From Pseudomonadota bacterium (GTDB lineage Bacteria > Pseudomonadota > Alphaproteobacteria > Rhizobiales > Afifellaceae): a stretch of DNA of 5,705 bases. The stretch is from NCBI GenBank assembly GCA_023417735.1, contig JAEZEK010000052.1, forward strand, positions 1 to 5,705. Direction: 5' to 3'. The position numbers and the translations under genes are program-made. Below the pieces are notes generated by a model. The model was not told the DNA's origin. It saw only the letters and a list, made by a program, of their open reading frames with translations, and did no database searches. Numbering within the stretch: the first letter of the stretch is position 1; each line of letters opens with the position of its first letter. Shown here one piece after another: positions 2,577 through 5,705 of this stretch.

Positions 2577-2615
2577 CTTCTGCCGCATTGCACAATCGGT
2601 TTGCATGCGCAGAAG
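2577..2615 (+). repeat. Imperfect inverted repeat / hairpin covering the nasT translation start region
   Basis: The 3' arm TTTGCATGCGCAGAAG (2600-2615) can pair over all 16 bases with the 5' arm starting CTTCTGC at 2577, leaving single-base bulges at C2584, T2588 and C2593 and a TCGG loop. Opening the last A-T pair gives the hexaloop ATCGGT, which has the A1 and G4 of ANTAR-protein targets. GCC at 2573-2575 can extend the stem against GGC at 2619-2621, covering the AGAAG/AAGG ribosome binding region of nasT up to its ATG. There is no T tract after it, so it is not an intrinsic terminator. The same bases contain TGCAC-N7-TTGCA (2589-2605), close to the NtrC consensus, so a DNA-level role is equally possible. 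The pairing is seen; the function is inference. Confidence 0.4.
2589..2605. promoter_or_regulatory. Possible NtrC-type binding site upstream of nasT
   Basis: The 17 bases read TGCACAATCGGTTTGCA. Against the classical NtrC dyad TGCACC-N5-GGTGCA, nine of the twelve defined positions match and the spacing is exact. It ends only 16 bases before the nasT ATG, unusual for an activator site but possible for autoregulation or for a promoter very close to the gene. I see no sigma-54 promoter next to it. It lies within the larger inverted repeat, so the resemblance may be a by-product of that structure. Confidence 0.3.
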
Positions 2616-2621
2616 TAAGGC

Positions 2622-3230
2622 ATGCTGGGCAAGGCGCTCTCCATCCTCGTCATCGACGAGAACCAGATCCGGGCCTCGATCATCGAGGCGGGGCTGCGCG
2701 AGGCCGGCCACGACCGCGTCACCGTCGTGCACGACGTGAACGGCATCGCGCGTCGGATCGCCGATCTCGCGCCCGACGTCATCGTCATCGACCTCGAGAA
2801 CCCCAACCGCGACATGCTGGAGAACATGTTCCAGCTCTCCAGGGTGGTGAAGCGGCCGATCGCGATGTTCGTCGACCGCTCCGACCAGGCGTCGATCGAG
2901 GCCGCGGTCGAGGCCGGCGTCTCCGCCTATGTCGTCGACGGGCTGAAGCGGGAGCGGGTGAAGCCGATCCTCGACATGGCGATCAGCCGGTTCAACGCCT
3001 TCTCCCGGATGTCGCGCGAGCTCGAGACGCTTCGCGGCGAGCTGGAGAACCGCAAGCTGGTCGACCGCGCCAAGGGCATCCTGATGGCCTCGCGCGGCAT
3101 CACGGAGAGCGAGGCCTATGCGCTGCTGCGGAAGACGGCGATGAACGAGAACCGCACCATCGGCGAGGTCGCCCGGAGCCTCATCACCGTCGCCGGCCTG
3201 CTGGCTCCGCCCGAGGACAAGAGGAAATGA
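2622..3230 (+). CDS. nasT: NasT-type ANTAR-domain response regulator, nitrate/nitrite-responsive transcription antiterminator
   Basis: This is a 202-residue soluble protein with a receiver-like domain (about 6-120), a short helical linker (about 128-148) and an ANTAR RNA-binding domain (about 140-195). The ANTAR motif is clear: RKLVDRAKGILMASRGITESEAYALLRKTAMNENRTIGEVARSLI. In NasT systems the protein binds paired hairpins in leader RNAs and blocks an intrinsic terminator; NasS holds it inactive until nitrate or nitrite is bound. The receiver keeps D12 and the central D57 but has VVDG where the conserved receiver Lys would be and FVD where Thr/Ser is expected. This fits control by NasS binding instead of phosphorylation. 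The ATG at 2622 has AGAAG at 2611-2615 and AAGG at 2617-2620. Its stop overlaps the nasS start (ATGA), so the two are probably co-translated. The likely target lies in this same window, in the nirB leader. Confidence 0.93.
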   Translation: MLGKALSILVIDENQIRASIIEAGLREAGHDRVTVVHDVNGIARRIADLAPDVIVIDLENPNRDMLENMFQLSRVVKRPIAMFVDRSDQASIEAAVEAGVSAYVVDGLKRERVKPILDMAISRFNAFSRMSRELETLRGELENRKLVDRAKGILMASRGITESEAYALLRKTAMNENRTIGEVARSLITVAGLLAPPEDKRK

Positions 3231-4465
3231 GCGCCGAGCACCAGATCGCGGCGGGCTTCATGCCGCTCCTCGACAGCGCGCTGCTCGTCGCGGCGAAGGA
3301 GGCGGGCTTCGCGGCCGCCGAAGGCGTCGACCTGAGCCTCTTCAGGGAGACGTCCTGGGCGAACATCCGCGACCGGCTGGCCGTCGGCCATTTCGACGTC
3401 GCGCACATGCTCGGTCCGATGCCGATCGCCTGCAATCTCGGGCTGACGCCGCTCGCGGCGCGCACGATCGTGCCGATGGCGCTCGGGCTGGGCGGGAACG
3501 CGGTCACCGTTTCCAACGCGCTCTGGTCGGTGATGGCGGACGAGGGCGCCCGCCCCGACCTCGACCCGAAGACCGCCGGGTCCGCGTTGCGGGCGGCAGC
3601 CGCCGAGCGGCTGGCGGGCGGGGGAGAGGCGCTGCGCTTCGCCGTCGTCCATCCCCATTCGGGGCACAATTACGAGCTCCGCTACTGGCTCGCCGCCTGC
3701 GGCATCCGCCCCGATCGCGACATCGAGATCGTCATCGTGCCGCCGCCGCTGATGCCGGACGCCCTCGAGGCCGGCCGGATCGACGGCTATTGCGTCGGCG
3801 AGCCGTGGAACAGCGCCGCCGTGCTGTCGGGACGGGGCCGCATCGCGACGGTGAAGGCGGCGATCTGGCGGTCGAGCCCCGAGAAGGTGCTCGGCGTGCA
3901 GGAGCGCTGGGCGAACGCCAACGGGGATCTCCTGGAGGCGCTGCTGCGGGCGCTCTACCGTTCCGCCCGATGGTGCGCGGATCCCGCGAACCGCGACGAC
4001 CTCGCCTCGCTCCTGGCCGAGCCGGCCTATGTCGGCCGCCCCGTCGAGTGGCTGATGCCGGCGCTGTCCGGCCGCATCGCGACCGGCGGGGGCGAGTGGC
4101 GCACGGTCGACGACTTCTTCATTCCGCTCGCAAGGGCGGCCACCTTCCCATGGAAGAGCCACGCTTTGTGGTTCTACACGCAGATGGTGCGCTGGGGGCA
4201 GGTCGCCCATGACGGGGCGGGGGAACGGATCGCCCGGGACACCTACCGGCCGGACCTCTACCGGTCGGCGCTGAAGCCCCTCGGCGTGCCGCTGCCGGGC
4301 GCGAACGCGAAGGTCGAAGGCGCGCTCGCCGCCCCGACCCCCGTCGGCTCCTCCGGAGCGAGCCTCGTGCTCGGCCCCGACGGCTTCTTCGACGGTGCGA
4401 TCTTCGATCCCGATCGGATCGAATCCTATCTCGCGACGCAGGCCGCCGCGCCCGAGGGCGCCTAG
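3227..4465 (+). CDS. nasS: NasS-type cytosolic nitrate/nitrite sensor, NrtA/CmpA-like binding protein
   Basis: This 412-residue protein resembles the periplasmic nitrate-binding proteins NrtA and CmpA but starts MSAEHQIAAGFMPLLDSALL with no signal peptide or lipobox, the hallmark of NasS. Characteristic segments are AGFMPLLDSALLVAAKEAGF (9-28), LFRETSWANIRDRLAVGHFDVAHMLGPMPIA (38-68), FAVVHPHSGHNYELRYWLAACGI (138-160), EAGRIDGYCVGEPWNSAAV (181-199) and FPWKSHALWFYTQMVRWGQ (307-325). SWANIRDRL, HML.PMP and GEPW line the ligand pocket in the family. NasS binds NasT without ligand and releases it when nitrate or nitrite is bound. The ATG overlaps the nasT stop by ATGA, with GAGG just upstream, implying translational coupling that keeps sensor and effector in proportion. 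The last 40 or so residues (after about 370) are Ala/Pro/Gly-rich and less typical. A transporter-associated NrtA is unlikely because no export signal or ABC genes are present. Confidence 0.92.
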   Translation: MSAEHQIAAGFMPLLDSALLVAAKEAGFAAAEGVDLSLFRETSWANIRDRLAVGHFDVAHMLGPMPIACNLGLTPLAARTIVPMALGLGGNAVTVSNALWSVMADEGARPDLDPKTAGSALRAAAAERLAGGGEALRFAVVHPHSGHNYELRYWLAACGIRPDRDIEIVIVPPPLMPDALEAGRIDGYCVGEPWNSAAVLSGRGRIATVKAAIWRSSPEKVLGVQERWANANGDLLEALLRALYRSARWCADPANRDDLASLLAEPAYVGRPVEWLMPALSGRIATGGGEWRTVDDFFIPLARAATFPWKSHALWFYTQMVRWGQVAHDGAGERIARDTYRPDLYRSALKPLGVPLPGANAKVEGALAAPTPVGSSGASLVLGPDGFFDGAIFDPDRIESYLATQAAAPEGA

Positions 4466-4487
4466 CTCGGCGGCCTCCTGTCCGAAA

Positions 4488-4505
4488 CTTGTGCGGCTGC
4501 ACAGG
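4488..4505. repeat. Dyad A upstream of the sigma-54 promoter, possible activator site
   Basis: CTTGTGC-GGCT-GCACAGG forms 7-bp arms, one pair being T·G, centred about 135 bases before the predicted nirB transcription start. That is within the usual distance of enhancer sites for sigma-54 activators. The half-sites are GTGC then GCAC, the reverse of the NtrC order, so assignment to NtrC is weak. Confidence 0.25.
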
Positions 4506-4546
4506 CCGGGCGATTACGAAATGGGCTGGCGATCCTCTCCCAAACT

Positions 4547-4558
4547 GCACCGGGGTGC
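4547..4558. repeat. Dyad B upstream of the sigma-54 promoter, possible NtrC site
   Basis: GCAC-CGGG-GTGC is a GCAC/GTGC dyad in NtrC order, inside TGCACC-GG-GGTGCT, but its spacer is 4 bases where the NtrC consensus has 7. It is centred near -79 relative to the predicted start. The position fits an enhancer; the short spacer argues against a canonical site. Confidence 0.3.
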
Positions 4559-4571
4559 TGGGCAAACCGCT

Positions 4572-4593
4572 GGCACGGAACGGGATTCGTGCC
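4572..4593. repeat. Dyad C just upstream of the sigma-54 promoter
   Basis: GGCAC (4572-4576) pairs with GTGCC (4589-4593), and GAA (4578-4580) with TTC (4586-4588), with G4577 bulged and CGGGA as loop. It lies about 38-59 bases before the predicted transcription start, so it is transcribed only if nasTS read-through continues this far. It may be an activator or repressor site. There is no T tract, so it is not a terminator for nasS. Confidence 0.25.
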
Positions 4594-4604
4594 CGAGCAG
4601 GACA

Positions 4605-4620
4605 TGGCACGCTTCCTGCA
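4605..4620 (+). promoter_or_regulatory. Sigma-54 (RpoN) -24/-12 promoter of nirB
   Basis: TGGCACG-CTTC-CTGCA matches the consensus TGGCACG-N4-TTGCA at every defined base but one, including the invariant GG (4606-4607) and GC (4618-4619) exactly ten bases apart. The predicted start, twelve bases after the GC, is near 4631-4633, 17-19 bases before the first ANTAR hairpin. Sigma-54 control of assimilatory nitrate genes through NtrC is well known. The promoter points towards nirB, about 164 bases from its ATG. Confidence 0.82.
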
Positions 4621-4649
4621 TCACGACCTGTAGCTAATCAAGCGATCAT

Positions 4650-4671
4650 CGGCGTCCAATGGCGGGCGCCG
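4650..4671 (+). promoter_or_regulatory. ANTAR-protein RNA target, first hairpin (P1)
   Basis: CGGCGTCC (4650-4657) pairs fully with GGGCGCCG (4664-4671), eight pairs including one U·G. The hexaloop is AATGGC, with the A at loop position 1 and G at position 4 that define ANTAR-protein targets such as those of NasR and EutV. The exact six-base loop on a strong stem, next to a terminator and downstream of nasT, makes chance unlikely. Confidence 0.8.
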
Positions 4672-4673
4672 CA

Positions 4674-4685
4674 GGCACAGCCGCC
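4674..4685 (+). promoter_or_regulatory. ANTAR-protein RNA target, second hairpin (P2)
   Basis: GGC (4674-4676) pairs with GCC (4683-4685) around the hexaloop ACAGCC, again A at 1 and G at 4. It follows P1 after two bases. The stem is only three pairs before A·G and C·A mismatches, so it is weak alone and would probably need NasT to be stable. Bases 4680-4685 are also the beginning of the terminator's 5' arm, so P2 and the terminator cannot form together. Confidence 0.62.
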
Positions 4686-4738
4686 GACCAGGAAACCGCG
4701 ACCCGCAAGGGCGCGCCTTTCTGGCCGGCGGCTTTTTT
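4680..4738 (+). terminator. Intrinsic terminator (attenuator) in the nirB leader
   Basis: GCCGCCGACCAG (4680-4691) pairs with CTGGCCGGCGGC (4721-4732) at 11 of 12 positions, the exception being A4687·C4725. The stem continues through AAA/TTT (4693-4695 / 4718-4720), CGCG/CGCG (4697-4700 / 4712-4715) and CCC/GGG (4702-4704 / 4709-4711) to a GCAA tetraloop. Six T residues follow at 4733-4738. It lies between the sigma-54 promoter and nirB and not directly after nasS, which makes it an attenuator of nirB; it would also stop read-through from nasTS. Confidence 0.85.
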
Positions 4739-4794
4739 CGTTTCGGCCGACCCTCGGCGGAGCCGGGGTTCGAACTGGAGACCTGGACGCAGAC

Positions 4795-5705
4795 ATGACC
4801 GAGAAGCTCGTCATCATCGGAAACGGCATGGCGCCGGGGCGGATGCTGGAGCATCTGTTCGAGGCGGCCCCCGGCGCCTTCGACGTCACCATCTTTAACG
4901 CCGAGCCGCGGGTGAACTACGACCGCATCATGCTCTCGCCGGTGCTCTCCGGCGAGAAGAGCTACGAGCAGATCGTGATCCACGGGGACGGCTGGTACGT
5001 CGATCGCGGCATCACCCTCTACAAGGGCCACAGGGTCGTCGCGATCGACCGGGCGGCGAAGACGGTCACCTCCGACCACGGCGCGACGGAGGCCTACGAC
5101 CGGCTCGTGATCGCGACCGGCTCGGTGCCCTTCATCATCCCGGTGCCCGGCCACGACCTGCCGGGCGTCCTCAGCTACCGCGACCTCGACGACGTGAACG
5201 CCATGCTGCTGGCGGCGCAGGCCCGGGCGAAGGCCGTCGTCGTCGGCGGCGGCCTGCTCGGGCTGGAGGCGGCGGCCGGGCTCAAGGCGCGCGGGATGGA
5301 CGTCACCGTGCTCCACCTCATGCCGACGCTGATGGAGCGCCAGCTCGATCCCGCCGCCGGGTACCTGCTGCAGAAGGCGGTCGAGGCGCGCGGCATCAGG
5401 GTCGTCACGAAGGCCGACACCAAGGCGATCCTCGGCGAGCGCCGGGTCGAGGGCGTGGAACTCGCGGACGGGACCGTGATCCCCGCGACGCTGGTCGTCA
5501 TGGCGGCGGGCATCAAGCCGAACGCAGCCCTCGCCAGGGAGGCGGAGCTCGCGGTGAACCGCGGGATCGTCGTCGACGCCGGCATGGCGACGTCGGACCC
5601 GTCGATCCTCGCGATCGGCGAATGCGCCGAGGTCGGCGGCCGGGTCTACGGCCTGGTCGCGCCGCTCTACGAAATGGCCCGCGTCGCGGCCGCCCGGCTC
5701 GCCGG
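4795..5705 (+). CDS. nirB: NAD(P)H-dependent assimilatory nitrite reductase large subunit NirB, N-terminal part (cut by window edge)
   Basis: 303 codons are present and the frame is open at the right edge; full-length NirB proteins are about 800 residues. This part is the FAD/NAD(P)H oxidoreductase module: KLVIIGNGMAPGRMLEHL (4-21) is the FAD dinucleotide fold, NYDRIMLSPVLSGEKSYEQI (41-60) is typical of NirB, VIATGSVPF (105-113) is the flavoprotein ATG motif, VVVGGGLLGLEAAAGLKARGMDVTVLHL (148-175) is the NAD(P)H fold, and ILAIGECAEVGGRVYGLVAPLYEMARVAA (271-299) is the second FAD motif. The Fe-S and siroheme domains that reduce nitrite to ammonium would lie beyond the window, usually followed by nirD. 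The enzyme is cytosolic. GGAG (4777-4780), 14 bases before ATG, is a distant and weak Shine-Dalgarno. The NasS/NasT-controlled leader supports an assimilatory role. Related flavoproteins of the same fold share these motifs, but the GNGMAPGR and NYDRIMLSP stretches favour NirB. Confidence 0.93.
   Translation, partial: MTEKLVIIGNGMAPGRMLEHLFEAAPGAFDVTIFNAEPRVNYDRIMLSPVLSGEKSYEQIVIHGDGWYVDRGITLYKGHRVVAIDRAAKTVTSDHGATEAYDRLVIATGSVPFIIPVPGHDLPGVLSYRDLDDVNAMLLAAQARAKAVVVGGGLLGLEAAAGLKARGMDVTVLHLMPTLMERQLDPAAGYLLQKAVEARGIRVVTKADTKAILGERRVEGVELADGTVIPATLVVMAAGIKPNAALAREAELAVNRGIVVDAGMATSDPSILAIGECAEVGGRVYGLVAPLYEMARVAAARLA

Follow-up and report, generated by a model that had tools for sequence, protein, structure and literature searches.

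A putative sigma-54-dependent NasT antitermination leader in front of an alphaproteobacterial nirB gene and its likeness to the narK RNA

The 329 bases that separate nasS from nirB in a Pseudomonadota bacterium of the family Afifellaceae (assembly GCA_023417735.1, contig JAEZEK010000052.1) hold, in this order, a -24/-12 promoter site, two small hairpins that we call P1 and P2, a terminator stem and a run of six T (T6). We analysed the whole 5,705-nucleotide stretch (contig positions 1 to 5,705, forward strand; hereafter the window) and regard 4605-4738 as very likely a leader with a sigma-54-type promoter site at which NasT, predicted to be freed from NasS by nitrate or nitrite, would hold the second hairpin against the terminator before nirB is reached. 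The three genes concerned lie on the + strand. nasT (2622..3230) encodes an ANTAR antiterminator with a degenerate receiver domain (Pfam ANTAR PF03861, E 1e-21; Response_reg, E 2.6e-8), and nasS (3227..4465), whose start overlaps the nasT stop (ATGA), encodes a predicted nitrate/nitrite-binding partner of NasT (Pfam NMT1_2, E 1e-70), so that an ANTAR protein and an NrtA-like partner are encoded as neighbours. The ATG of nirB stands at 4795, where the initial annotation of this DNA had put it, and the N-terminal part of the gene (4795..5705, continuing beyond the window) matches NCBIfam TIGR02374 with E 2.7e-111 over model positions 1-302 of 794; its score lies under the curated whole-protein cut-off because the window holds only 303 residues.

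A predicted hairpin leader between nasS and nirB

The sigma-54-type -24/-12 site, TGGCACGCTTCCTGCA, occupies 4605..4620 on the + strand, with GG at 4606-4607 and GC at 4618-4619 separated by ten nucleotides, and can be read directly as the GG-N10-GC promoter annotated initially. Judged from the position of this promoter, the leader RNA would span 4631..4794 (+ strand), its start being set ~12 nt past the -12 GC. P1 (CGGCGTCC AATGGC GGGCGCCG; 4650..4671, + strand) has eight pairs and P2 (GGC ACAGCC GCC; 4674..4685, + strand) three, and both carry a hexaloop with A at position 1 and G at position 4 (A1/G4); together they have the form of an ANTAR target, that is, two tandem hairpins of at least three pairs with A1/G4 hexaloops. 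P2 is mutually exclusive with an intrinsic terminator (4679..4738, + strand), in which AGCCGCCG (4679-4686) pairs with CGGCGGCT (4726-4733), the long stem running from 4679 to 4733 with CCAGGAA/TTTCTGG as its inner stem and T6 following at 4733-4738; the 3' arm of P2 (4683-4685) falls inside the 4679-4686 arm. The earlier coordinates for the two hexaloop hairpins (4650-4685) and for the long-stem T6 terminator (4680-4738) are correct to one or two bases. Between the end of the T run and the nirB start codon lie 56 bases. About 3 nt link P1 to P2, and the two loops are 19 nt apart, as against 19-23 nt in relatives with the same tight layout. The stem of P2 has three pairs only, which is a limit on these parts. 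An inverted repeat, GGCACGGA ACGGGA TTCGTGCC, was also seen at 4572-4593, just 5' of the sigma-54 site, and is possibly a protein-binding DNA site.

Chance can be ruled out as the origin of this arrangement by sequence shuffling and by the match of a covariance model built without the window (below). Among 5000 dinucleotide shuffles of 4466-4795, 0.12% had a P1 of at least seven pairs with a P2 at 13-30 nt, 1.8% had the sigma-54 pattern, and none had both; this test covered the hairpins and the sigma-54 pattern, with the terminator outside it. The fold of 4630-4760 is more stable than expected (z = -3.2), 2 of 200 shuffles being equally stable. A simple terminator scanner, which handles loops of 3-8 nt only, made no call in 4400-4900. 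Predicted folds of the growing transcript contain P2 at ends 4690, 4715, 4720 and 4725 and the terminator at 4735, and the predicted energy of the terminator form (-57.7 kcal/mol) is 13 kcal/mol more favourable than that of the form with P2 enforced (-44.5 kcal/mol).

The two regulator proteins were compared with solved structures. NasT was aligned to EutV (6wsh), with positions hand-counted on the assumption of a chain index two higher than the numbering in the paper. It keeps the EutV Tyr and Met (Y166 and M174 here), which PMC8934654 assigns to G4 stacking and loop positioning, as well as two of the three EutV basic contacts (R142/K143), K147 being replaced by Arg. In the receiver domain, the Lys-Pro of EutV, a protein activated by phosphorylation, corresponds to Asp-Gly in NasT, a substitution that would fit control by a partner instead of phosphorylation. 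The solved structures nearest to NasS are NrtC/CmpC-type proteins, in their C-terminal parts, and NrtA (nitrate transport ATP-binding protein 8wm7, C-terminal part, E 1.9e-54; NrtA 2g29, E 9.5e-47).

Conservation of the leader and co-occurrence with NasT

Relatives were collected by a scan with a NirB fragment, taking one genome per species, and the 80 loci used are the best of at least 525 confirmed; their nirB products are 81-86% identical to the NirB part in the window. In what follows, L and G numbers label loci and genomes of the comparison sets. A script found the tight P1-P2-T-run layout in 55 of the 80 nirB loci, and a covariance model (R1, built from 27 leaders including the window) added L003, which has no run of five T, and L011, which has no strict P2. 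A looser variant of the same parts, in the search for which a sigma-54 site was required, occurs in 14/80 (L004, L005, L008, L018, L020, L044, L046, L058, L061, L066, L067, L071, L074 and L079); here P1 is of the CGGTC AAYGGC GAYCG type (one base off in L020 and L074), P2 (GAC AnnGAC GTC) comes 45-49 nt after it, and a T run follows. By eye, another possible hairpin lies between P1 and P2 in these looser leaders. Neither layout was found at 9/80 loci, one of which (L080) has only 121 bases upstream. With the pattern used, no sigma-54-linked leader was found upstream of nirB in Shinella sp. UYSO24 (L040); at 200-2028 of that locus the NasT and NasS matches each come in two pieces.

For part of the loci, gene order was compared as well. 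The leader stands directly 5' of nirB in Reyranella and in the window, while L003, L006, L036, L042, L053 and L062 have the order nasT-nasS-leader with the leader at least 1.3 kb 5' of nirB, and that of L001 is flanked by nasS and an NrtA-like gene.

A second model, R2, was built from 56 leaders with the window excluded. The initial annotation had suggested a covariance search over the leader and its orthologues, and R2 indeed recovers the window at 4651-4740 with 80.5 bits (E 3.2e-20, on a rough scale), the next-best matches being the reverse complement of the window itself (28.3 bits) and then one of 8.1 bits. We then examined covariation in an alignment of 80 leaders (the window and 79 others, with two rows from L056). 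In it, 95.5% of the cells are paired and 13/20 pairs are double-changed somewhere; cells changed on both sides number 106, against 17.3 in shuffles, and none of 500 shuffles reaches the observed value in any of five measures. Shifting the partners by 1-3 columns lowers pairing to 31-56%. The terminator stem covaries too, 9/13 of its pairs having changed on both sides, and in the P2 stem pair 34-45 has gone from GC to AU in 17 leaders, with two pairs invariant and a possible fourth pair missing in 54. Conservation of loop A1 and G4 in orthologues had been set beforehand as a test together with compensatory change in the stems, and it came out in favour of the annotated structure: of the 79 leaders other than the window, 79/79 have G4 in both loops, and A1 is retained in 77/79 for P1 and 75/79 for P2, counts to be read with the selection of rows discussed below.

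Presence of the leader goes together with presence of NasT. In a sample of 385 genomes drawn evenly from the class of Reyranella aquatilis, NasT (cut-off E <=1e-15) is present in 60. R1 has matches in 13 genomes, 11 of them with NasT (Fisher p 3.5e-8), the exceptions being G205 (E 6.6e-4) and G350 (E 2e-6), and R2 at E <=1e-3 has matches in 22, 20 of them with NasT (Fisher p 6e-16). Seeds of R2 came from 10 of the 22 positive genomes; among the other 12, NasT is found in 11. Exactly one R1 match each was obtained in nine genomes of the original loci, and in the family of Reyranella aquatilis a model match was obtained in 15/75 genomes.

The -24/-12 element is likewise conserved, and in its place. 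The pattern TGGC[AT][CT]-N6-[TA]GC, sought in the 75 bases 5' of the model start, occurs in 62/80 leaders, including the window at -46 (46 nt 5' of model start 4651), as compared with 29/6807 control windows of the same loci (0.43%); 53 of the 62 sites lie between -46 and -56. The leaders that lack it comprise 11 of Rhizobium type (including L062, 2574-2664), two of Hyphomicrobium (L036, L045), two of unclassified Proteobacteria, L097, L118, and L117, which is cut by a contig end. Those of Rhizobium type and Hyphomicrobium keep the same hairpins and terminator, and another promoter may serve leaders of this kind; judged by sequence, the promoter step differs between lineages.

The proposed two-step switch and its alternatives

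What was observed directly is the set of sequence parts and how far they are conserved, the covarying stems, and the joint occurrence of leader and NasT. The two-step switch put forward in the initial annotation is supported by these observations, its AND logic, its start site, the action of NtrC and the binding of NasT being what we infer. Nitrogen limitation would bring an activator such as NtrC to start transcription at ~4631 through sigma-54. The nascent RNA is predicted to fold P1 and then P2 and, once the 3' arm has been made at ~4725-4735, the terminator would displace P2 and transcription would stop. With nitrate or nitrite present, as work on NasST, EutV and NasR suggests, free NasT would bind the A1/G4 loops of P1 and P2 and allow read-through into nirB. 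The net prediction is that reading of nirB would require both a scarcity of nitrogen and the presence of nitrate or nitrite.

This type of mechanism is already known from other bacteria, as had been said of NasT/NasR-type antitermination from the outset. A two-hairpin ANTAR target overlapping a terminator is established for EutV and found in NasR, AmiR and NasT systems (PMC3369931, PMC7496416), and PMC8934654 argues that a dimer touches only a single hexaloop at any moment, with P1 serving for recruitment and P2 for antitermination. Release of NasT in dependence on nitrate or nitrite is reported for another NasS-NasT pair (PMC3795266). Pseudomonas nirBD, for which initiation by sigma-54/NtrC and antitermination by NasT at the leader NalA are described (PMC12830290), is like the window in both respects, a likeness by description, the nalA sequence not having been compared by name; G534, a genome with an above-cutoff match to the Rfam family discussed below (L161), has the gene order nasT-nasS-leader-nirB as in the window. 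Dual Ntr/NasR control is described for Klebsiella (PMC5424462), and nasF of Klebsiella oxytoca, where read-through in vitro was 5% without and 52% with nitrate, shares the P1-P2 hexaloop RNA with A1/G4 and a closing C:G pair (PMC7496416); NasR carries the nitrate-sensing domain itself, within a single protein, whereas NasT and NasS of the window are separate. In P. denitrificans nasTS directly precede the hairpin leader of nasABGHC, with the regulators just upstream as in the window, and hairpin HI is needed for growth on nitrate (PMC5424462), but the first structural gene there is nasA and the NtrC site tested lies at nasT, whereas the window has nirB. The eut leaders of E. faecalis share the two hexaloop hairpins, the second overlapping the terminator (PMC3369931, PMC8934654), with a loop-to-loop distance of 24 nt in eutP (A29 to A53) as opposed to 19 in the window. 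Of the genes affected by a nasT mutation in B. diazoefficiens, most are described as lacking such a hairpin (PMC6759348). No description of the window leader itself was found in the literature searched, as the initial annotation had expected.

Several observations weigh against the proposed switch. The linker of ~3 nt is shorter than the 5-12 nt of the E. faecalis eut leaders, the one system for which a working range is available, and cutting the eutP linker to 3 nt is reported to reduce induction drastically (PMC3369931). Predicted folds ending at 4700 and 4710 lack P2, and the latter lacks P1 too. The two loop-closing pairs of P1 and two pairs of P2 barely vary and therefore give no covariation; the near-invariance of the former accords with the sequence-specific closing pairs reported for EutV (PMC3369931). 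The A1/G4 counts are partly selected because the alignment was fitted to the model structure and its rows were chosen by the model, and an alignment fitted in this way favours the structure. As for NasT, 2/22 R2-positive genomes gave none, namely G073 (E 7e-4) and G350, the latter carrying a NasS-like gene at its locus L096; seven more R2 matches at 1e-3 to 1e-2 come with NasT in just one case; and 40/60 genomes with NasT have no R2 match at 1e-3, so the model covers part of the family only. The sigma-54 pattern is absent from 18/80 leaders, and the promoter step is thus not universal. Finally, NtrC-like 17-mers before nirB are at chance level, the best agreeing at 9/12 positions, which 12% of shuffles equal; the candidates at 4546 and 4498 were rejected on this ground. 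A weak candidate of the same kind, TGCACAATCGGTTTGCA, lies 5' of nasT at 2589..2605 (+ strand), with 9/12 consensus positions, which 5.8% of shuffles equal.

It is this last set of results that bears on a reading in which NasT antitermination holds but the promoter is served by another enhancer-binding protein, NtrX for example, or is mostly constitutive, so that there is no true AND gate. Such an arrangement shares the folding and antitermination steps with the proposed switch and disputes its first step alone. The want of an NtrC site above chance near the promoter speaks for it, as do the leaders without a sigma-54 pattern; the strong enrichment and conserved position of that pattern, and the description of Pseudomonas nirBD as NtrC/sigma-54 driven (PMC12830290), speak against it, and we consider it unlikely.

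The stem and T run could instead be the end of the nasT-nasS transcript, with the hexaloops incidental and nirB served by its own start downstream. The stem begins ~214 bases past the nasS stop and is nearly symmetric, in keeping with the 28.3-bit model match on the reverse strand, and the scan of 4400-4900, in which no sigma-70-type promoter was found, was blind to other promoter types. A conserved sigma-54 site and conserved A1/G4 loops, however, stand between nasS and the stem, and the Reyranella loci L037, L077 and L105-L112 have the leader 5' of nirB with no nasT or nasS match in the stretch fetched, which makes a plain transcript end very improbable. No more credible is an action of the hairpins chiefly on translation or RNA stability rather than on termination: some ANTAR matches do lie near ribosome binding sites (Ramesh et al., PMC3369931), but P2 overlaps a T6 terminator whose stem covaries in 9/13 pairs, and the end of the T run is 56 bases ahead of the start codon.

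The narK RNA and three-hexaloop leaders

We compared the window with Rfam, and no family scored above its cutoff. The best match at the leader was to RF03032, the narK RNA, with 16.4 bits against a gathering score of 43.2, so the window is not a member by the Rfam rule; the match (E 0.55 in a 241-base search) places P1 and P2 in register. At the start of the RF03032 consensus stands GGCaCAgcucUUGCU, readable as a -24/-12 site; a hairpin bearing the loop AACGGC comes next, and at the end is CGACAAAGACGUCG (CGAC AAAGAC GUCG), which is unpaired in Rfam and can form a second hairpin with an A1/G4 hexaloop. When six loose-variant leaders were searched against Rfam at high sensitivity, RF03032 was matched by L067 (38.7 bits), L046 (34.2), L018 (31.5) and L074 (27.5), all below 43.2, with the alignment spanning P2 as well as P1 in L067 and L046 only; no RF03032 match was obtained for L004 and L058 in this search, nor for L006, L086 and L088.

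Among 369 genomes of the phylum, 19 RF03032 matches at or above the gathering score fall in 14 genomes (L148-L161, L166-L170); at E <=1e-3 matches occur in 20 of the 369 genomes and in 0/14 control genomes. TGG-N10-GC stands at the 5' end of 18 of these 19 matches, and TGG-N10-G[CA] at that of all 19. A strict script recognized P1 in 17, P2 in 15 and the terminator that overlaps it in 15, with 13 matches showing all three parts. Inspection by eye showed a G in the first loop position of P2 in L152 and L170, one mismatch within the stem of P2 in L168 and L169, and one within P1 in L153 and L156. A NasT homologue is present in 14/14 of the above-cutoff genomes, a count that covers these 14 of the 369 only: in seven NasT lies inside the 3-kb locus, and in 7/7 of the others it was found by search (34-37% identity, E 2.5e-34 or better). 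In the class sample, sub-threshold RF03032 matches occur in 12/385 genomes, 10 of them with NasT; L142, L145 and L146 are not leader-like, and L137, L141 and L143 lie within ~310 bases past nasT.

A further feature of some leaders is an additional A1/G4 hexaloop hairpin of at least five pairs that starts 18-19 bases 5' of P1. It was found in 14/17 leaders of the Reyranella family search (L086, L088, L091, L105-L112 and L116-L118), 16 of the 17 standing before nirB, compared with 4/63 other leaders and 1.3% of 4000 single-base shuffles. In the extra stem 98.8% of cells pair and both-side changes occur at two positions, with two of the five measures not above shuffles. Three A1/G4 hexaloops were also found in L139, L141 and L143 of the Reyranella group and in L165, the last hexaloop overlapping the terminator arm; for L141, the best predicted fold does not contain the first of the three. 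At the corresponding place, just 5' of P1, the leaders of L001, L006, L012, L062 and other rhizobial loci have a short small-loop hairpin (GGCC NNNN GGCC type). In the window, a weak hairpin, GCT AATCA AGC (4633..4643, + strand), occupies the site at which a tetraloop or third hexaloop hairpin stands in relatives, and its five-base loop rules out a third hexaloop there.

The looser layout is also represented in Sinorhizobium meliloti 4H41 (L074), where 3719-3881, ahead of nirB at 4001, holds a sigma-54 site, P1 (TGCTTCGGTC AACGGC GACTGAAGCG), P2 (GAC ACCGAC GTC) and a T run. We predict a NasT leader before S. meliloti nirB at this place, weak by R1 (17.6 bits); the regulation of that gene is reported as not known yet (PMC6616083).

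Taken jointly, these comparisons make it likely that the narK RNA (RF03032) consists of sigma-54 promoter DNA and a NasT two-hexaloop target, with the nirB leader of the window as its alphaproteobacterial cousin, that some leaders carry three tandem A1/G4 hexaloops as a new multi-site form of ANTAR target, and that such a leader precedes S. meliloti nirB. The proposed reassignment of the narK RNA and the three-hexaloop variants are what is new here. The terms narK motif and narK RNA were not found in the literature searched, an earlier mention of the link being possible, and no ANTAR target with a third or triple hairpin was found there among the matches listed. NasT thereby becomes the predicted partner of the orphan family RF03032, whose model seems to include a stretch of promoter DNA. 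Predicted nitrate-controlled antitermination of nirB is extended from Pseudomonas to loci of Mesorhizobium, Rhizobium, Reyranella and Hyphomicrobium, with sequence rules and a covariance model to go with it. The three-hexaloop leaders would provide a natural test of the proposal that the ANTAR dimer is first recruited at an upstream hexaloop and then passed to the one that overlaps the terminator.

Elsewhere in the window, GGGGTTCGAAC at 4765-4775 hinted at a tRNA remnant, which was ruled out by ARAGORN (no tRNA in the window). Upstream of nasT lie a gene of the MmgE/PrpD type (1-1338, - strand) and a CoA-transferase gene (1443-2564, + strand).

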